Shown: piece after piece, positions 12,194-25,848 of the stretch
Position numbering within the stretch: position 1 is the stretch's first letter
Layout: the number at the start of each line of letters is the position of its first letter
Source of the DNA: Thomasclavelia spiroformis DSM 1552
GTDB taxonomy: Bacteria > Bacillota_I > Bacilli_A > Erysipelotrichales > Coprobacillaceae
Length of the DNA stretch: 64,000 bases
Direction of reading: 5' to 3'
Assembly: GCF_025149465.1 (NCBI RefSeq)
Contig: NZ_CP102275.1
Location: forward strand, 1,240,001-1,304,000
The notes under the pieces: model-generated
Seen by the model: only the letters and a program-made list of their open reading frames with translations
What the model was told of the DNA's origin: nothing
The model's database searches: none
Made by a program: the position numbers and the translations under genes

Positions 12194-12313
12194 TCGATAA
12201 GACATATATTGATATGCTATTTTATGACATTAATATAATAAAAAATATAATATTTTTTTAAATCAAAAGTAATTTGAAATCTAAAAATGTATATGGTAAT
12301 AGGAGGGAAAAAT

Positions 12314-13300
12314 ATGAACGACTTATTTGAAAAAATAATAAATCATGCCATTTCATATAAAACATCAGATATTCATTTTTTATTAAAACAACAATGTATT
12401 ATATCATTTAGACAAAATGGTCGTTTAACTCAATATGATGTACTCGATTATAATGTAGGAATAAAATTAATTAATTATATTCGATTTAAATCTAATATTG
12501 ATATTAATTACCAGTTAATGCCACAAACCGGACATATAAACTATACATATGAAAACAAAATATATTATCTGCGGGTTTCTAGTTTACCTGGAAAAGATAT
12601 CGATAGTATTGTTGTTCGTATATTAAATAATCATCGTAATTTGTCATTAGATGAACTTACTGTTTTTAAAGATGTAAAAGATTTTTTAAATCAAATCGTA
12701 AAACTAAATGCTGGTTTATTTATTGTAAGTGGTGCAACTGGTTCAGGAAAATCAACAACATTATATACATTATTAGATACAATAAATAAGTTTGAACAAA
12801 AAAATATTGTAACATTAGAAGATCCAATTGAAATAAAAAAATCATATTGTCTACAAATTCAAATCAACGATAAATTAGGAATTACATACAATAACTCATT
12901 AAAACAAATTCTTCGTCATGATCCTGATGTCATTATGATTGGTGAAATTCGTGATGAACAAACAGCTAGATTAGCAATAACTTGTGCTTTAACTGGTCAT
13001 TTAGTTTTAACTACGATTCATTCTAGTAATTGCCTTACAACAATTCGTAGATTGTTAAATTTAGGGATCTTAAAAATTGATGTCGAAGATGTATTAATTG
13101 GGGTAATGGCACAAAAAATACTTTATCAAAAAAGCTCACATGAACCAATTATTTTAGTTGAATATTTAAATCGAACAATGATCAAACATTTTTTTAAAGA
13201 AGGATATGTTGAATATACTACTTTTAAAGACAATGCTAAATATTTATTAGACAATGATTTGGTTGATCAAAAACAGTTAACAGGAGTTTTGTATGAATGA
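12314..13300 (+). CDS. comGA: ComGA-type pseudopilus assembly ATPase
   Basis: A 328-residue cytosolic secretion ATPase that powers the DNA-uptake pseudopilus. The start at 12314 is fixed by AGGAGGG at 12301-12307; the nine in-frame codons before it overlap that RBS. Walker A is SGATGSGKSTT (near 140), the Asp-box segment is TLEDPIE, and the Walker B/His-box region reads HDPDVIMIGEIRDEQTARLA. The protein is short, lacking the large N-terminal domain of type II secretion GspE, as is typical for ComGA. It is the first of seven overlapping genes. The 184 bases upstream are very AT-rich and I could not define a competence-specific promoter there. Confidence 0.92.
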   Translation: MNDLFEKIINHAISYKTSDIHFLLKQQCIISFRQNGRLTQYDVLDYNVGIKLINYIRFKSNIDINYQLMPQTGHINYTYENKIYYLRVSSLPGKDIDSIVVRILNNHRNLSLDELTVFKDVKDFLNQIVKLNAGLFIVSGATGSGKSTTLYTLLDTINKFEQKNIVTLEDPIEIKKSYCLQIQINDKLGITYNNSLKQILRHDPDVIMIGEIRDEQTARLAITCALTGHLVLTTIHSSNCLTTIRRLLNLGILKIDVEDVLIGVMAQKILYQKSSHEPIILVEYLNRTMIKHFFKEGYVEYTTFKDNAKYLLDNDLVDQKQLTGVLYE

Positions 13301-14294
13301 AGAATATCGTTTTTTAGAGACTATTGCTATTTTTTTAGAGCAGGGATATTTGATTCAAGATGTCTTAAATATATGTAAGTATATTTATAACAATGATCGA
13401 ATTGAACAATTAAAATTAAAGTTAAATGAGGGCAAAAGTTTGGATGAAGCGATTCTAGAGTGTGATTTTAATAAAACTTTTAAAGAATATTTTAATTTTT
13501 TTAGAATTAAAAATAATTTATCTAAAGCAATTATACAAAGTGTTAATATTTGTAAATCAAAAGACAATACCTTTATGAAATTAAAAAAAGAGCTAACATA
13601 TCCTTCATTATTAATTGTTTTTTTAATGATGTTTTCACTATTTATTGTATATGCACTTTTACCATCAATTATGCAATTATTTAATGAATTTTCAATTGAA
13701 CCTAGTTTAATAACTAGATTTATGTTTATGTTATTTAAAATAATTCCTATTTTGATTTTAGGATTGCTTATCAGTTTTATTGGACTTTGTTTTGTCGCAA
13801 TATATGCGATAAATAAACAGTATTTTCAATTAATTGATTTTTTTGTTAGTCATATTTTTATAATTAAAAATATCATTCAAAAATATTATTCAATTAAATT
13901 CGCCCTTTATTATAATGAGTTATTAGTTAATGGTTATGATACTACTGATATAGTTATTATGCTTTATCAACAAATCGATGATAGTGATATTAAAATGTTG
14001 ATCTATGAAATATATACACAGATTTTAAAAGGGGAGTCATTAGAAAAAATCATCATTAATTTTAATTATTTTGAACCATTATTTATTGCCAGTTTTAAAT
14101 TATTGATTCATGATAATCGTGCTAATAAATCACTTGATAATTATTTAAAAATATCACTTGATATACTGCATTTTAAAATTAGTAAAGTAATTAAAATAAT
14201 TGTACCAACAATTTATTGTTTTACCGCAACTTTTGTTGTTTTAGTTTATGTATCAATAGTTATTCCCATGATGTCAGTTATTAGTAATTTATAG
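13293..14294 (+). CDS. comGB: ComGB-type inner-membrane platform protein
   Basis: A 333-residue type II secretion system F-family protein that forms the membrane platform on which pseudopilins assemble. Three strong hydrophobic segments are present (about 105-125, 145-175 and the C-terminal 305-330), matching the usual T2SSF topology with two cytoplasmic domains. The ATG overlaps the last eight bases of comGA, so the two are coupled. Conservation is weak at the sequence level, and the assignment rests on topology, length and position between the ATPase and the pilin genes. Confidence 0.85.
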   Translation: MNEEYRFLETIAIFLEQGYLIQDVLNICKYIYNNDRIEQLKLKLNEGKSLDEAILECDFNKTFKEYFNFFRIKNNLSKAIIQSVNICKSKDNTFMKLKKELTYPSLLIVFLMMFSLFIVYALLPSIMQLFNEFSIEPSLITRFMFMLFKIIPILILGLLISFIGLCFVAIYAINKQYFQLIDFFVSHIFIIKNIIQKYYSIKFALYYNELLVNGYDTTDIVIMLYQQIDDSDIKMLIYEIYTQILKGESLEKIIINFNYFEPLFIASFKLLIHDNRANKSLDNYLKISLDILHFKISKVIKIIVPTIYCFTATFVVLVYVSIVIPMMSVISNL

Positions 14295-14303
14295 GAGGTT
14301 ACA

Positions 14304-14606
14304 ATGAAAAGAAAAGGATTTACGTTAATCGAAATGATCTTTTGTATTTCAGTCATTTTAATTATTTTATTACTTGTTATTCCTAACGTGACAAGTAAAA
14401 ATCGGGTTGTTAAAGAAAAAAGCTGTGAAGCTCAAGTTGAAGTAGTCAACTCCCAAATAGTATTATACGAGATCGAGCATGGTCACTTGCCAACTAGTAT
14501 TTCTGATTTAACATCGGGTGAACATCCGTATTTGACAGAAAAACAAATAACCTGCCCTAGTGGTTTAAAAATCTCTATTGTCGATGGTCAAGCTTATGCT
14601 AATTAA
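14304..14606 (+). CDS. comGC: ComGC-type major pseudopilin
   Basis: A 100-residue class III pilin-like protein. The prepilin peptidase site is RKGFTLIEM, with cleavage expected after the Gly and methylation of the Phe, followed by a 20-residue hydrophobic helix. Two Cys residues (in KSCEAQ and ITCPSG) could form a disulfide in the head domain, as in ComGC of other Firmicutes. The RBS AGGAGG is strong, unlike those of the minor pilins that follow, consistent with this being the major subunit. No prepilin peptidase gene is visible in the window. Confidence 0.92.
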   Translation: MKRKGFTLIEMIFCISVILIILLLVIPNVTSKNRVVKEKSCEAQVEVVNSQIVLYEIEHGHLPTSISDLTSGEHPYLTEKQITCPSGLKISIVDGQAYAN

Positions 14607-15003
14607 TCGTGGTTTTACACTAATTGAAGTTATTTTTTCAATTAGTGTAATTATTATTCTTAGTTTATTTACATTAAGGTATGCACGCTTATCACCTGTA
14701 CATTTATCAATTAAACAACAGTGTAATCAGGTTATTTCTTTATTGCAGGATGCTAAAACTCAAGCACTGTTAAATCATCAAAAAATAGATATCATCATTG
14801 AAAATAATCAAATAAGCTATAATGATGGCAATCAGCATGTTCTAAAATTAGATGAGAATTATTATTTTGAAAATAGCTTTGAGCTCTATTTTAATAAAAA
14901 TGGTAATATCAATTCTGGAAATACTTTAAAATTATGCGATAAAAATACTTGTAAAAGTATTATATTTAATGTTGGAAGTGGGGTTTTTTATGTTAAAGAG
15001 TAA
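14596..15003 (+). CDS. comGD: ComGD-type minor pseudopilin
   Basis: A 135-residue pilin-like protein with the prepilin motif NRGFTLIEV and a hydrophobic helix right after it. I chose the ATG at 14596 because it gives a short positively charged leader; earlier ATGs lengthen the leader without a better RBS. It overlaps the end of comGC by 11 bases, so translation probably depends on coupling. A Cys pair (LCDKNTCKS) lies near the C-terminus. The family name is assigned from position in the comG operon and the pilin motif. Confidence 0.82.
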   Translation: MLINRGFTLIEVIFSISVIIILSLFTLRYARLSPVHLSIKQQCNQVISLLQDAKTQALLNHQKIDIIIENNQISYNDGNQHVLKLDENYYFENSFELYFNKNGNINSGNTLKLCDKNTCKSIIFNVGSGVFYVKE

Positions 15004-15211
15004 AGGAATGACATTAATTGAAACATTATTAGCTTTTAGTATCTTTGTAGGCTCAGTAGTGATGATTTTTAGTAGCTATGTTAGTGCCTTGAAACATTAT
15101 CAATCTAATAATCACGAATATTATGAATATTTAAAATTACAAAATAATAAGGAATTAGAATTATGGAAAACAAATCAATTAGATTCATCAATAGAAGAGG
15201 TTTTACATTAA
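14990..15211 (+). CDS. ComGE-type minor pseudopilin (short)
   Basis: A 73-residue protein with a type IV prepilin-like N-terminus (SKGMTLIETLLAFSIF), where Met replaces the usual Phe at the +1 position of the mature protein. The ATG at 14990 follows GGAAGTGGGG and overlaps the end of the preceding gene by 14 bases. The head domain is very short. Position between the ComGD-like and ComGF-like genes supports a ComGE role, but sequence similarity cannot be judged by eye. Confidence 0.7.
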   Translation: MLKSKGMTLIETLLAFSIFVGSVVMIFSSYVSALKHYQSNNHEYYEYLKLQNNKELELWKTNQLDSSIEEVLH

Positions 15212-15633
15212 TTGAGGTATTATTTTCTTTAGCTATTTGCTTATTGATTGTAATCAATGTATTGCCAATCGTTAAAATAGTTACTAGTAAAAATAACATT
15301 AATGTTAATACTAGTTTTTATGCAATGGGAGCAAAACAAGTTGCTAAAATTTTATATACTGCAAGAGATATTAAAGTAGGCGGAAATTTATTATATTTAG
15401 ATAGTGATGATAAAACATATACATTATCATTGAATAAAAATCGTGTTGTTAAAGAACCAGGGTTTGATATTATTATTAGAAATGTTGAAGAGTTAAGTTT
15501 TTATAGATATGATAAAAATATTTATATGTGTTTAAATGATGGTGAAAATGAATATCATTATTTAATTGCAACTGATTATCAGTTAAAAAATGAAGAGATT
15601 ATTGAGGATAGTAGTGATGAAACAGTTGAATAA
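15163..15633 (+). CDS. comGF: ComGF-type minor pseudopilin
   Basis: A 156-residue pilin-like protein with prepilin motif NRRGFTLIEVLFSLAI and one N-terminal helix. The head has the beta-rich pattern of ComGF, including a segment with the YTLSLNKNRVV stretch and an acidic C-terminus. It overlaps the upstream gene by 49 bases, the largest overlap in the operon. Assignment is by motif, length and operon position. Confidence 0.78.
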   Translation: MENKSIRFINRRGFTLIEVLFSLAICLLIVINVLPIVKIVTSKNNINVNTSFYAMGAKQVAKILYTARDIKVGGNLLYLDSDDKTYTLSLNKNRVVKEPGFDIIIRNVEELSFYRYDKNIYMCLNDGENEYHYLIATDYQLKNEEIIEDSSDETVE

Positions 15634-15991
15634 ATCAAAAGGCTCGATTTTACAAGTGGTTTTAATTGTTTTTATGGTTTTAGTTTTAAATATTAGTGTG
15701 TTTTATCTTAATATTATTGAAAATAGTCGAGCGATTAAAAGAACAAAAAGGTTAAATAACGAACGATTAATTGAGCTTAGTATTATAAGATACTATAAAG
15801 AGATGATTTTAAATGATATTTTATTAAGTAATGTAATTGAGATTGAAAATTATGTAATTAATTATACTGTAGATGATTTTGGAAATTATTATTATATTGA
15901 AACTATAGTAAAGAAATATGATAATGAATTTGGTTTTAATTTAGAAATTGAACTTGATTCATTAGTGATATTATCTTTTGAATATCGATAA
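15617..15991 (+). CDS. ComGG-like last gene of the pseudopilus operon
   Basis: A 124-residue protein with one N-terminal hydrophobic helix (about 10-29) preceded by KSKGS, a degenerate prepilin-like site lacking the FTLIE signature. The ATG at 15617 is preceded by GAGG and lies within the end of comGF. ComGG proteins are similarly poorly conserved and lack a standard motif, so the assignment is by position as the seventh gene. The following gene, efp, has its own promoter. Confidence 0.65.
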   Translation: MKQLNKSKGSILQVVLIVFMVLVLNISVFYLNIIENSRAIKRTKRLNNERLIELSIIRYYKEMILNDILLSNVIEIENYVINYTVDDFGNYYYIETIVKKYDNEFGFNLEIELDSLVILSFEYR

Positions 15992-16069: not shown

Positions 16070-16627
16070 ATGATTAGTGTAGGAGATTTAAGACCAGGAA
16101 CTACTTTTGAATATGAAGGTAACTTATATGTTGTATTAGATTATTCACATAATAAAACAGCTCGTGCAGCTGCAAATATTAGAATCAAAATGAAGAATTT
16201 AAGATCTGGTTCAACTACTGAAGTTACATTTGGTGGAAATGATAAAGTAAAAAAAGCACACGTTGATAAAAATAAAATGCAATATCTTTATAATTCTGGA
16301 GAAGCATTAGTTTTTATGGATAATGAAACTTATGAACAAATTGAAATTCCTGCTGATAATTTAAAATGGGAAATCAATTTCTTAAAAGAAAGTGATGAAG
16401 TTGAAGTAACTAGTTATGAAGGAGAAGTATTAGGAGTTTCTTTACCTATCAATGTTCCTTTCAAAGTTATTGAAACTGAACCAGCTGTAAGAGGTGATAC
16501 AGCTACAGGAGCTACTAAAAATGCTATTATTGAAACAGGATATCAAATTAAAGTACCTTTATTTATTTCTGAAGGTGAAATTGTTATCGTAAATACAGTT
16601 GATGGTAAATATCAAGGTAGAGCATAA
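16070..16627 (+). CDS. efp: Translation elongation factor P
   Basis: A 185-residue protein that relieves ribosome stalling at polyproline stretches. The N-terminal KOW-like domain includes DLRPGTTFEYEGNLYVVLDYSHNK, where the conserved loop normally carries the modified Lys/Arg; here it reads SHNKTARAA rather than HVKPGKG, so the usual tip Lys is shifted or replaced. Two OB-fold domains follow, with the EFP signature GYQIKVPLFISEGE near the C-terminus. Length is normal. It is a single-gene unit with a promoter and a terminator. Confidence 0.95.
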   Translation: MISVGDLRPGTTFEYEGNLYVVLDYSHNKTARAAANIRIKMKNLRSGSTTEVTFGGNDKVKKAHVDKNKMQYLYNSGEALVFMDNETYEQIEIPADNLKWEINFLKESDEVEVTSYEGEVLGVSLPINVPFKVIETEPAVRGDTATGATKNAIIETGYQIKVPLFISEGEIVIVNTVDGKYQGRA

Positions 16628-16637
16628 TTAACTAATC

Positions 16638-16669
16638 AGTGATGATTAAAATTTAATCATCACTTTTTA
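16638..16669 (+). terminator. Rho-independent terminator of efp
   Basis: Ten-base-pair stem AGTGATGATT / AATCATCACT (16638-16647 and 16655-16664) with a seven-base loop and a T tail. Confidence 0.88.
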
Positions 16670-16687
16670 TATATATTATTGTTTATT

Positions 16688-16716
16688 TTCATATTTTTAT
16701 CTTTTTAACATATACT
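16688..16716 (+). promoter_or_regulatory. Sigma-E-like promoter upstream of spoIIIAH
   Basis: TTCATATT (16688-16695), a 13-base spacer and CATATACT (16709-16716). Compared with the B. subtilis sigma-E consensus (GKMATATT, 13-14 bases, CATACAMT) each box differs at one position. No good sigma-A promoter lies in this gap. The match sits 26 bases before the spoIIIAH start codon, with RBS AAAGGAG between them. Confidence 0.65.
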
Positions 16717-16742
16717 AGAGTAGTTGATAAAGGAGAAAAAAT

Positions 16743-17213
16743 ATGAATAGACAAGCAATTACTTTTTTAACCTTATTTAGTCTAATTTTAGTACTTTCAA
16801 TTTATTATATTCTTTTGCCTCCAGAAAATACTGCTAATCAAGTTTCTTTAAATGATCAGGAAGTTTCACAAATTGAAATGATGCAAAAAAATTTAGATAA
16901 AGAACGAGAAGATTTAATTAGTAAAAATAATGCAATTATTGCTTCTGGTAAAAGCAATAGTGATGAAATTGCTTCAGCCTTAGCTTCAATTAGTGAAGCT
17001 AAAGAAACGGCAGCTTTAGAAAAAAAGATTACTGATATTATTAATAATGCAGGATTTAAAAATGCCTTTGTAGAAGTGGAAAATAAAACAATTAAAGTAG
17101 TTGTAGATAAAAAAAATGGTAAGGAAACTGATGCTAACAATATTATTAAAGCAGTAATGGAAAAAACAAACAACGAATATCAAGTGGAAGTTAAGTTTAT
17201 TAGTGAGACTTGA
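16743..17213 (+). CDS. spoIIIAH: SpoIIIAH-like sporulation protein
   Basis: A 156-residue protein with one N-terminal membrane helix (about 8-26), a Glu/Lys/Ala-rich coiled linker (about 40-90) and a C-terminal YscJ/FliF-like ring-building domain (about 92-155, including NAGFKNAFVEVENKTIKVVV). In B. subtilis, SpoIIIAH sits in the mother-cell membrane and joins SpoIIQ across the intermembrane space in the feeding-tube channel. Here it directly follows efp and precedes asp23 and nusB, the place of the spoIIIA operon, but spoIIIAA-AG are absent from this locus. A sigma-E-like promoter precedes it. Confidence 0.85.
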   Translation: MNRQAITFLTLFSLILVLSIYYILLPPENTANQVSLNDQEVSQIEMMQKNLDKEREDLISKNNAIIASGKSNSDEIASALASISEAKETAALEKKITDIINNAGFKNAFVEVENKTIKVVVDKKNGKETDANNIIKAVMEKTNNEYQVEVKFISET

Positions 17214-17263: not shown

Positions 17264-17602
17264 ATGAGTCAAGAATATTATTCAGTCGAAAAAGAAACAA
17301 ATTTAGGTACTTTAAATATTGGTTTAAATGTATTTCAGTCAATAATCATTGAAACTGTAAAAGCAATGAATGGTATATGCTTTGAAGGGAATATGATCAA
17401 CATGCCTGGAAATTCCCCAATAAACGTGCGTCTTAACAAAAATAATCAAGTTATTGTTGATGTAGCAATACTAATTGATTATGGATTAAACGTTACAACC
17501 ACAACTACTGCATTACAAAATAAAATTATTCAAAGTTGTTTTGAAATGACAGGAATTAAAAATATTAAAGTTAATATTGAAATTAAAGGTATAAATTTTT
17601 AA
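17264..17602 (+). CDS. Asp23/Gls24 family protein (YqhY-like)
   Basis: A 112-residue Asp23-family protein. The start at 17264 follows AAAGGAG; upstream in-frame codons run back over the promoter region without an RBS. Family features include the N-terminal NLGTLNIGLNVFQSII segment and the central VNVRL-like and VDVAILIDYGLNV beta-strands, ending in VNIEIKGI. In Firmicutes this gene between the accBC or spoIIIA region and nusB is yqhY, which in B. subtilis is linked to acetyl-CoA carboxylase regulation. The acc genes are not beside it here. A terminator follows at once. Confidence 0.85.
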   Translation: MSQEYYSVEKETNLGTLNIGLNVFQSIIIETVKAMNGICFEGNMINMPGNSPINVRLNKNNQVIVDVAILIDYGLNVTTTTTALQNKIIQSCFEMTGIKNIKVNIEIKGINF

Positions 17603-17693: not shown

Positions 17694-18098
17694 ATGAAGA
17701 AATATAGAAAAAAATTAATTAGAGAAAAAGCAGTTATTGCAATTTACCAAAAATTACTTATAGATATAACAACAGAAGAAGTTTATAATTACTTAGATAG
17801 TGATAAAGAACTAGCAAATGATAAAGATGATTATGATTATTGTGTTATGTTAATTAGTAGCATTGCTAATAATCTTGAAAAGTATAAAGCTGAAGTTGCA
17901 AAACATTTAAAAAAAGGATGGTCACTTGAACGATTATCAAAAATGGAACTTGCAATTCTTTTAGTTGGATGTTATGAATTATTAGAAACGGACCAAAGTA
18001 AAGAAGTTATTATTAATGAAGCAGTTGAATTATCTAAAAAATATTGTGATGATGATGTTTATAAATTTGTAAATGGAGTATTAAATAAAATTAAGTAA
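17694..18098 (+). CDS. nusB: Transcription antitermination factor NusB
   Basis: A 134-residue all-helical RNA-binding protein that works with NusE in rRNA antitermination. NusB features include the N-terminal LIREKAVIAIYQKLL helix, the WSLERLSKMELAILLVGCYELL segment and the C-terminal INEAVELSKKYCDDDVYKFVNGVLNKI signature. The RBS GGAAGGACGG precedes the ATG, with a possible extended -10 (TGATAAAAT, 17655-17663). It begins an operon of tightly overlapping genes (nusB-xseA-xseB-ispA-dxs-tlyA-recN) and shares one base with the xseA start. Confidence 0.94.
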   Translation: MKKYRKKLIREKAVIAIYQKLLIDITTEEVYNYLDSDKELANDKDDYDYCVMLISSIANNLEKYKAEVAKHLKKGWSLERLSKMELAILLVGCYELLETDQSKEVIINEAVELSKKYCDDDVYKFVNGVLNKIK

Positions 18099-23152: not shown

Positions 23153-24808
23153 ATGTTAGAGAGTATTTATATAGAAAATTTTGCGATTATTGATCAATTA
23201 CAAATTGATTTTCATGATCAAATGACTGTATTAACTGGTGAAACTGGTGCTGGTAAATCAATCATTATTGATGCAATTGGTCAATTATGCGGAAATCGTA
23301 GTCAAACTACTTTTATTAAAAGTGATGCTAATGAATCTTTTATTGAAGGTGTTTTTTCAATTAAAGATAATTCTTCTGTTTTAGATAAATTAAAGGAATA
23401 TCGCATCGAATATGATGATAAACTAATTGTGTCTAAATCATTTAATCGTAATAATAAAACAACAATTAAAATTAATTATCGCAATGTTTCTACCATGGCT
23501 CTTAAATCAATCATGAAAGAATTAATTGATATCCATTCTCAATTTGAAACACATACATTATTCGATAGCAATAACCACATTAATATTTTAGATGATTATA
23601 TTGGTAAACCACTTGTATCACTGAAACAAAAATACAAAGAAGTATATCAAAAATACATCGACATAAAAAAAACTTATCAAAAAGCAGTTGAAGAAGAATT
23701 AAGCGATGAACAACTAGAATATTACCAAAATCAATTATCTGAAATAAATAGTTTGAATCTTACAGAGATTGATGAAGAAAAATTAGAATCCGAGAAAAAA
23801 AGATTACTTGATTTTGAAAAAACTAATGAAAAAATTAGTAATTATCGTCAATATATGGAAGGTAATCAAGGCACACTCTCATCACTAAATAGTGCATTAA
23901 ATGAATTAGAAACATTAAATCAACATGTTAACTATCAGCAAATCTATGAACAAATGTATGATTTATATTATAATTTAATTGATTTAAATGATGCTATTTT
24001 AGATGAATATAATCGAAATGATTTTGATGAATTTCGTTTAAATGAAATCCAAGAAACATTATTTAAATTAAATCGTTTAAAAAGAAAATATGGTCAATCA
24101 ATCAATGCTATTTTAAATGCAAAAAAAGAAATCGAAGATAAAATTCTTTCATTTACAAATCGTGAAACATATATTAACGATTTAAAATCAAAATTAGATT
24201 CAATTTTAATTCAAGTTAATCAAAGTGCAAAAGAAATAACAACTTTACGCAAACAAAAAGCATTAGAGTTTACAAATAAAGTAATGGAACAATTAAAATC
24301 ATTGTATCTAGAAAAAGTTGTATTTGAAATAAATTTTCAAAAAACCTCTCTACAAAAAAATGGTCAAGATATTATTACCTTTCTAGTTTCAACAAATTCT
24401 GGTCAAACATTACAACCGCTAAATAAAATTGCTTCAGGTGGTGAAATGTCTCGAATCATGCTAGCAATAAAAACATTATCATTATCTTCTGGTTCACTTG
24501 AAACAATCATCTTTGATGAAGCTGACAGTGGTGTCAGTGGTAAAGTAGCTGAAAGTATTGGTGCTAAAATGAAATATATTGCTAAAAAATATCAAGTATT
24601 ATGCATTAGTCATTTAGCTCAAGTTGCTAGTTTTGCTAATCATCATTATTTAATCAAAAAAACAAGTTATGATGATAATACAAGTGTTAAAGTTAGTGAA
24701 TTAAGTGAAGAAAAAAGTATTTTAGAAATTGCTAAATTAATTTCTGGAAAAGATATATCTAAAGAATCAATCGATCATGCTAAAAAATTAAAATTAAGTA
24801 ATGAATAA
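23153..24808 (+). CDS. recN: DNA repair protein RecN
   Basis: A 551-residue SMC-like ATPase recruited to double-strand breaks. The Walker A is TGETGAGKSIIIDAI (near 30), the long middle is coiled coil, and the C-terminal head has the signature NKIASGGEMSRIMLAIK followed by Walker B TIIFDEADSGVSG. Length is normal for the family. It ends the nusB-xseA operon in translational terms; a sigma-G-like promoter for spoIVB overlaps its last codons. Confidence 0.95.
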   Translation: MLESIYIENFAIIDQLQIDFHDQMTVLTGETGAGKSIIIDAIGQLCGNRSQTTFIKSDANESFIEGVFSIKDNSSVLDKLKEYRIEYDDKLIVSKSFNRNNKTTIKINYRNVSTMALKSIMKELIDIHSQFETHTLFDSNNHINILDDYIGKPLVSLKQKYKEVYQKYIDIKKTYQKAVEEELSDEQLEYYQNQLSEINSLNLTEIDEEKLESEKKRLLDFEKTNEKISNYRQYMEGNQGTLSSLNSALNELETLNQHVNYQQIYEQMYDLYYNLIDLNDAILDEYNRNDFDEFRLNEIQETLFKLNRLKRKYGQSINAILNAKKEIEDKILSFTNRETYINDLKSKLDSILIQVNQSAKEITTLRKQKALEFTNKVMEQLKSLYLEKVVFEINFQKTSLQKNGQDIITFLVSTNSGQTLQPLNKIASGGEMSRIMLAIKTLSLSSGSLETIIFDEADSGVSGKVAESIGAKMKYIAKKYQVLCISHLAQVASFANHHYLIKKTSYDDNTSVKVSELSEEKSILEIAKLISGKDISKESIDHAKKLKLSNE

Positions 24809-24831
24809 TTATGAGCATAGAAGCCAAACTA
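24802..24831 (+). promoter_or_regulatory. Sigma-G/sigma-F-like promoter upstream of spoIVB
   Basis: TGAATA (24802-24807), a 17-base spacer and CAAACTA (24825-24831). Against the forespore sigma-G consensus TGAATA-N17/18-CATACTA this is a full -35 match with one mismatch in the -10. It overlaps the recN stop codon and lies about 30 bases before the spoIVB start. Confidence 0.6.
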
Positions 24832-24861
24832 AGATGTAACGTTAGTTACAAGGAGGTTTCT

Positions 24862-25848
24862 ATGCTTTTTAAAAAGCTAATTCTTTCTCTAGTTGTAGCT
24901 TTATCCATTATTAATCCAATTGCAGCATATGCGATTACATTAATCCCTGGTGGCGATTCAATTGGAATTGAATTAGATTATCAAGGAGTAGTGATAACTG
25001 GCGGCTATGAAGTAAAAACAACCGATGACATTTATAATCCTTTAGAAAATGAATTCAAAATTGGTGATAAGATTATTGAAATCGAAAGTAAAAAAGTAAC
25101 TACTATTAATGAATTGAGTGAAATAATTAAAAATAGTGGGAATTTAAAAGAAAACTTTGATGTTACAATAATCAGAAATAACAAAGAAATTCATAAAACA
25201 CTAAAAGTTATTTATGAAAACAACCAATTTACTACTGGTTTATATGTCAAAGATGCAATTAATGGTGTTGGAACCATTACTTTTTATAATCCTGATAAGC
25301 AAAGTTTTGGAGCATTAGGTCATGCTATGGAAGATACTACATTAAACAGTGATTTACTACAATCTGGTAAAATTTTTGAAAGTACTGTTACAAGTATAAA
25401 AAAAGCTACACCTAATCATTCTGGAAACAAAATTGCTGATATTTCAAATGTTGAAATAGGTAGTATAAACAGCCATAATCAATTCGGTATTTATGGAACT
25501 TATAATTACGATATTTCTAAAAAAAAATCTATGGAAACAGCAAATATTGATGAGATTGAATTAGGAAAAGCATACTTTCTAACAGTATTAGATGGTCAAA
25601 AAATCCAAAAGTGTGAAATTGAAATCACTAAATTGAATAATCAGGATTCAATCAAAGAAAAAGGTATTGAATTTAAAGTTACCGATCAAGCAGTAACAAA
25701 ACAAGCAAATGGTATTGTTCAAGGAATGAGTGGTTCTCCAATCATTCAAAATGATAAAATTATTGGCTGTGTTACTCATGTATCTGGTAATAACCCAATG
25801 CTTGGATATGGATTATATATTGAATGGATGTTAGAAATGGATAAGTAG
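24862..25848 (+). CDS. spoIVB: SpoIVB sporulation signalling serine peptidase
   Basis: A 328-residue S55-family protease, secreted by the forespore to trigger sigma-K activation. An N-terminal signal/anchor helix is followed by the conserved LIPGGDSIGIEL stretch, a PDZ-like domain (about 65-125) and the peptidase domain with catalytic His in LGHAMED and catalytic Ser in GMSGSPII. The ATG at 24862 follows AAGGAGG, itself preceded by a small hairpin (TGTAAC/GTTACA, 24835-24850). Earlier in-frame codons overlap the sigma-G-like promoter. In Bacillus and Clostridium spo0A usually follows; here a terminator and azlC follow instead. Confidence 0.95.
   Translation: MLFKKLILSLVVALSIINPIAAYAITLIPGGDSIGIELDYQGVVITGGYEVKTTDDIYNPLENEFKIGDKIIEIESKKVTTINELSEIIKNSGNLKENFDVTIIRNNKEIHKTLKVIYENNQFTTGLYVKDAINGVGTITFYNPDKQSFGALGHAMEDTTLNSDLLQSGKIFESTVTSIKKATPNHSGNKIADISNVEIGSINSHNQFGIYGTYNYDISKKKSMETANIDEIELGKAYFLTVLDGQKIQKCEIEITKLNNQDSIKEKGIEFKVTDQAVTKQANGIVQGMSGSPIIQNDKIIGCVTHVSGNNPMLGYGLYIEWMLEMDK

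Follow-up and report, generated by a model that had tools for sequence, protein, structure and literature searches.

The window, a 64-kb stretch (bases 1240001-1304000) of the Thomasclavelia spiroformis DSM 1552 genome, carries spoIIIAH between efp and an asp23/yqhY-nusB pair (Table 1), and the order efp-spoIIIAH-asp23-nusB, first proposed from the letters alone, is borne out by Pfam. In B. subtilis, efp on one side and asp23/yqhY and nusB on the other border the spoIIIA-accBC region, and the earlier description of a lone spoIIIAH at the normal spoIIIA site is correct: no spoIIIAA-AG gene lies between efp and asp23-nusB, and accBC is missing from the efp-nusB locus. The 115 bp gap between efp and spoIIIAH contains a terminator hairpin and a promoter, and nothing else. 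A hairpin is found at the efp terminator position throughout the genus, and because this strong structure ends efp, spoIIIAH constitutes its own transcription unit; in B. subtilis, which has the same efp and yqhY-nusB flanks, spoIIIAH instead closes an operon of eight genes. A comG-type pseudopilus operon encoding an ATPase, a T2SSF protein and small pilin-like proteins (T2SSE 260 bits, T2SSF 43 bits) adjoins efp-spoIIIAH on the upstream side, at window positions 12287-15991.

Table 1. Coordinates of features at the spoIIIAH locus (window positions), and the loci at which gerM follows spoIIIAH.
Feature	Position	Strand	Evidence or remark
efp, bordering the ancestral spoIIIA locus on the left	16070..16627	+	Three EF-P Pfam domains
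efp intrinsic terminator, 12-bp stem and T run	16638..16669	+	Fold -12.8 kcal/mol, z = -6.1; terminator scan
-35 box TTCATATT, sigma-E type	16688..16695	+	Conserved at fixed spacing, 15/17 relatives
-10 box CATATACT, sigma-E type	16709..16716	+	CATATA conserved; similar boxes at spoIID and spoIVA; sigE in genome
Ribosome-binding site AAGGAG	16730..16735	+	Sequence; conserved
spoIIIAH	16743..17213	+	156 aa; sole family member in genome; Pfam, AlphaFold2 model, dN/dS
N-terminal membrane helix, aa 3-24	16749..16814	+	AlphaFold2 helix; most conserved part of SpoIIIAH across the order
Extracytoplasmic ring-building domain, aa 73-153, alpha-beta-beta-alpha-beta; predicted SpoIIQ-binding segment aa 126-152	16959..17201	+	AlphaFold2 model and structure matches
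asp23/yqhY, right flank	17264..17602	+	PF03780, 47.2 bits; next after spoIIIAH in nearly all Erysipelotrichales loci
nusB, right flank	17694..18098	+	PF01029, 94 bits
spoIIIAH-gerM loci			L132, L140, L143-L147, L149-L151, L154-L156, L158-L162, L164, L165, L167-L171, L173, L174, L176-L181, L183

The ORF is a genuine SpoIIIAH, matching the Pfam profile PF12685 with 42.9 bits (E 6.7e-11; cut-off 30.6), and it is the one true match to this profile in the complete 2.53-Mb single-contig genome. Neither PF12685 nor a lineage profile revealed a second SpoIIIAH in the complete genome, nor was a full spoIIIA operon found there, the two findings that would have spoken against the sequence-only reading. 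A PF12685 match of 20.8 bits at C1:2130022 corresponds to a charged, low-complexity membrane protein aligned only to the N-terminal half of the model and was rejected. The window protein is recognized by no NCBIfam model and is about 23% identical to B. subtilis SpoIIIAH (21.6 bits by phmmer); its nearest named relatives among the matches listed are from Thomasclavelia cocleata, T. saccharogumia and related Coprobacillaceae (Erysipelotrichales). In an AlphaFold2 model built from 17 sequences (mean pLDDT 73), a single membrane helix at the N-terminus is followed by a linker and an alpha-beta-beta-alpha-beta domain. Among PDB entries the model comes closest to B. subtilis SpoIIIAH (3tuf_A and 3uz0; TM 0.81-0.87 by target length, E 5e-7 to 5e-6), with the type III secretion ring protein EscJ ranking below these. 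The protein resembles B. subtilis SpoIIIAH (3TUF, 3UZ0) in its Pfam family, in its membrane helix and ring-building domain, and in its SpoIIQ-binding strand, but at 156 aa it has a shorter linker. Within the genus the gene is under purifying selection, with dN/dS of about 0.12.

A sigma-E-like element, TTCATATT-N13-CATATACT, had been placed 26 bases before the ATG, and it is present as described. This single site also fits a weak sigma-70 promoter (9/12) and for that reason proves little by itself, the weight resting instead on conservation across relatives. When the 29-bp element was compared across related genomes, both boxes were seen ahead of spoIIIAH in 15 of 17 relatives with a spacing of 13-14, and the loss of the boxes that would count against the promoter was not found. 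Among nine members of the genus, 13 of 16 positions in the boxes are invariant versus 7 of 28 in the spacer and leader, a difference for which the Fisher p value of 4e-4 is optimistic because the genomes compared are related. The invariant C of CATA speaks against the sigma-70 reading. A promoter motif derived from the family matches once in the 64-kb window, with 0.01 matches expected, and related -10 boxes (CATATAAT / CATATAAAT) are present in the genus at spoIID and spoIVA, which in B. subtilis are mother-cell genes of the sigma-E type. Genome-wide, a strict pattern gave four matches versus one in a reversed control, counts that define no regulon, so that the cross-species comparison was taken instead; the other three matches are without regulatory context, two lying within pflB- and murG-like frames and one having no identified gene nearby. 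The conservation across relatives and the related -10 boxes support a sigma-E promoter for spoIIIAH, of the type seen in B. subtilis.

The sequence-only reading had offered two possibilities for the remainder of the machinery, either that it is encoded elsewhere or that the lineage uses a reduced feeding-tube channel. Family searches for SpoIIIAA, AC/AD, AE and AG were conducted in 40 genomes (the window genome and 39 relatives), with B. subtilis as a positive control that was detected in every component search. SpoIIIAE, SpoIIIAC/AD and SpoIIIAG were each found in 0/40 genomes, and the SpoIIIAA ATPase in 0/40 above the cut-off. Nine sub-threshold SpoIIIAA matches, none in the window genome, cover only a short P-loop segment of ORFs that are about 380-450 aa long; they are non-specific, as E. 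coli and others also score. Unlike B. subtilis, the window genome therefore has no detectable SpoIIIAA, AC/AD, AE or AG, and an encoding elsewhere is excluded for these four in the complete single-contig genome; at the spoIIIAH locus itself SpoIIIAB and SpoIIIAF are absent as well. As SpoIIIAH itself is so weakly similar to its B. subtilis counterpart, the family models could overlook distant forms of the missing proteins, and a full channel built of such diverged components, perhaps with AB and AF among them, would then be encoded elsewhere. We consider this improbable, because the searches for AE, AC/AD, AG and AA that recovered nothing over cut-off in 40 genomes did detect the B. subtilis control, because SpoIIIAH and SpoIIQ are both found, and because no AA-AG-like neighbour was seen at the best 80 of 446 spoIIIAH loci, as judged from gene clusters, scanned representatives and gene lengths rather than from a scan of every neighbour. 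It is also at odds with Davis et al. 2013, who found no spoIIIA homologues in other Erysipelotrichia and reported the spoIIIA operon as missing and SpoIIQ as present (PMC3749518).

With a more sensitive lineage profile, SpoIIIAH is detected in 67 of 315 Erysipelotrichales genomes, representing 26 of 79 genera and both families; the genome-wide tests for AE and the other components apply to the 40 genomes and not to all 67 of these. A candidate in G026 was rejected, as the match is confined to the N-terminal part of a 262-aa protein. In 17 Erysipelotrichaceae regions spoIIIAH has no adjoining spoIIIA genes and is usually followed by asp23; upstream of it there is in most cases a gene that is RelA/SpoT-like in the member sampled, and in some a ribF-type gene. 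The gene in efp's place, directly upstream of spoIIIAH, is about 457 aa long at L087, L089-L092, L094, L096-L101 and others, and the one member scanned has a RelA/SpoT domain (49.6 bits).

A wider collection was scanned for SpoIIIAH relatives and the best 80 of 446 were examined. In 34 of these 80 a gerM gene with two Germane domains (96 bits for a representative) lies downstream of spoIIIAH, and a GerE-like regulator, mostly of 67-90 aa, is situated between the two in 18 of 19 inspected. The 34 genomes are mostly titled Bacilli or Tenericutes bacterium and include Candidatus Aphodocola and Scybalousia; we refer to them as RF39-like because they resemble the gene set published for RF39. No spoIIIAH-gerE-gerM cluster is present at the Erysipelotrichales loci examined.

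These variants also bear on whether SpoIIIAH has been recruited to another machine, such as the type II-like apparatus encoded by the comG-type genes. These genes adjoin efp-spoIIIAH in most Coprobacillaceae loci as well as in the window, but at L107-L109 and L127 the orientation of the cluster relative to spoIIIAH is reversed, and the Erysipelotrichaceae and RF39-like loci lack it; moreover, the spoIIIAH promoter is of the sigma-E type, and a terminator separates the two units. Recruitment of this kind seems highly improbable.

Several members of the class are reported to form spores (PMC3749518, PMC10868615), and the window genome encodes much of the expected programme. It has spoIVA, and a SigE gene that scores 340 bits with NF006158 (cut-off 339) and 321.8 bits with TIGR02835, below the cut-off of 348.6; spoIIGA (PF03419, 36.9 bits) is directly upstream of sigE. 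These two genes and a gene at the sigG position are located after ftsZ. The sigG-position gene (L197:8169-8945, corresponding to G000 C1:917668-918444) scores 260 bits with the SigG model (cut-off 372) and 250 with SigF, a near tie, and sigma-G may have diverged in this channel-less lineage. A spoIVFA-spoIVFB pair is probable from gene order and an M50 peptidase, and spoIVB is in the window at 24811-25848 (Peptidase_S55, 208.5 bits). The interval 23153-25848 comprises an ORF that by appearance is recN, and then spoIVB.

The presence of SpoIIIAH tracks that of the spore-coat gene spoIVA, which is found in 20 of the 40 genomes: SpoIIIAH is in 17 of the 20 spoIVA-positive genomes versus none of the 20 lacking spoIVA, and a small SpoIIQ is present in all 20 of the former (E 6e-22 or better) and in none of the latter. 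The three spoIVA- and SpoIIQ-positive genomes in which SpoIIIAH was undetected even with the lineage profile (G009, which is 69% complete, G013 and G019, with SpoIIQ loci L043, L039 and L038) reflect loss, strong divergence or an assembly gap.

The search of the window genome for spoIIQ located it at C1:2127162-2127803 on the minus strand (L025:1462-2103, minus), beside spoIID and scoring 120 bits against B. subtilis SpoIIQ (3tuf_B; E 7.7e-34); a mreB-type gene follows spoIID-spoIIQ. Similarity to the B. subtilis proteins is 120 bits for SpoIIQ versus 21.6 bits for SpoIIIAH, showing that the partners evolve at very different rates. As in B. subtilis, the LytM zinc site of SpoIIQ is degenerate, the first zinc His being replaced in 20/20, and 18 of the 20 relatives keep Leu109, the other two having Met (G016) and Phe (G029) in its place. 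In SpoIIIAH the strand E149-V150-K151-F152 is among the best-conserved parts of the domain, and E149, V150 and F152, equivalent to B. subtilis positions 211, 212 and 214, are invariant in 17 relatives; in B. subtilis, the strand pairing with SpoIIQ consists of residues 212-214 (PMC12720343). Also retained are the equivalents of A193, I196, I197, V210, V212 and F214, which are contacts in the crystal structure (PMC12720343). With the interface residues kept, we infer that SpoIIIAH and SpoIIQ bind one another.

We also asked how well these data sit with spoIIIAH being a functionless relic, drifting after loss of the operon. The three spoIVA-positive genomes with no detectable copy fit this, but the gene has been kept across the 67 genomes of both families with a low dN/dS and a conserved promoter, its interface residues are among the most conserved, and it is lost together with spoIVA. 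We regard a relic as scarcely credible.

The proposal of a reduced feeding-tube channel divides into two parts. That the system is reduced is supported, but that it is a channel is not, as AE, AA, AC/AD and AG are missing. A passive conduit, formed where a SpoIIIAH ring meets a SpoIIQ ring and having neither motor nor export gate, would be in keeping with the intact ring-building fold, with the weaker EscJ matches, and with SpoIIQ in all spoIVA-positive genomes. However, the family searches detected none of the proteins that build the known membrane core, motor and main ring (AE, AC/AD, AA and AG), and SpoIIIAH has a single membrane helix and no pore. We consider such a conduit unlikely. No known export core is left, and a role of SpoIIQ-SpoIIIAH as a zipper or landmark fits better than a channel.

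We therefore favour, with a probability of roughly 0.6, the interpretation that the export part was lost and that the SpoIIIAH-SpoIIQ pair was kept and works as an engulfment zipper or landmark without a channel. The lineage would have lost the SpoIIIAA ATPase, the AC/AD and AE membrane core and the AG ring, and retained SpoIIIAH and SpoIIQ. The mother cell would make SpoIIIAH from its own sigma-E promoter, and the protein, anchored by its membrane helix, would extend its ring-building domain into the intermembrane septal space, where it would bind SpoIIQ of the forespore through the latter's enzymatically inactive LytM domain. During engulfment the pair could then serve as a zipper or ratchet, and it could also be the landmark by which other proteins are recruited to the septum; neither sigma-G activation nor forespore integrity would depend on a feeding-tube channel in these organisms. 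C. difficile mutants in spoIIQ and spoIIIAH are unable to complete engulfment and yet sigma-G is active (PMC4605598), so the two roles are separable; this is the same logic as that proposed here (PMC4605598, PMC4982068), although C. difficile differs in having a spoIIIA operon and intact SpoIIQ zinc ligands. We also count in favour of a zipper or landmark the gerE and gerM genes after spoIIIAH in the RF39-like genomes, as GerM is required for SpoIIQ localization in B. subtilis (PMC12720343). Sporulation of B. subtilis tolerates the loss of direct SpoIIQ-SpoIIIAH binding, as reported in 2025 (PMC12720343), and binding may accordingly not be the selected function.

These findings correct the published picture, in that the loss of spoIIIA in Erysipelotrichia is not total: whereas Davis et al. 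2013 found no spoIIIA homologue in the same class (PMC3749518), spoIIIAH persists in its ancestral place across the order. Genomes of RF39 have been listed with spoIIQ and a gene printed as 'spoIIAH' (PMC10868615), and these are probably in the same lone-SpoIIIAH state. That survey credits the two genes to RF39 beyond its Erysipelotrichales reference, whereas we find that Erysipelotrichales carry both SpoIIQ and SpoIIIAH, which the annotation-based approach misses; the gerE and gerM genes that follow spoIIIAH in the RF39-like genomes also go beyond its listing. Relative to the literature searched, what is new is spoIIIAH at its ancestral site across Erysipelotrichales, the conserved promoter and interface, the association with spoIVA and SpoIIQ, and the gene order spoIIIAH-gerE-gerM in RF39-like genomes, although a 2022 survey of Firmicutes sporulation genes may already list spoIIIAH in some species.

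The main job of SpoIIIA-SpoIIQ, whether as channel, zipper or landmark, is still argued, and the complex has been called conserved in all spore formers (PMC4605598). The lone SpoIIIAH is a natural separation of function that bears on which part of the machine sporulation needs, and evolution has here made the cut opposite to that of the 2025 B. subtilis result (PMC12720343), in that the channel components have disappeared and dozens of species keep the binding pair together with its interface and promoter. A broader proposal, which we put forward tentatively and rate at somewhat below even odds, is that Erysipelotrichales and RF39-like Bacilli form endospores by means of a motorless SpoIIQ-SpoIIIAH module, with GerM, which forms a bridge between the two cells in place of the eight-protein channel, and that sigma-G is turned on without a channel. 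If this is true, the 'feeding tube' would not be a universal requirement of endosporulation.
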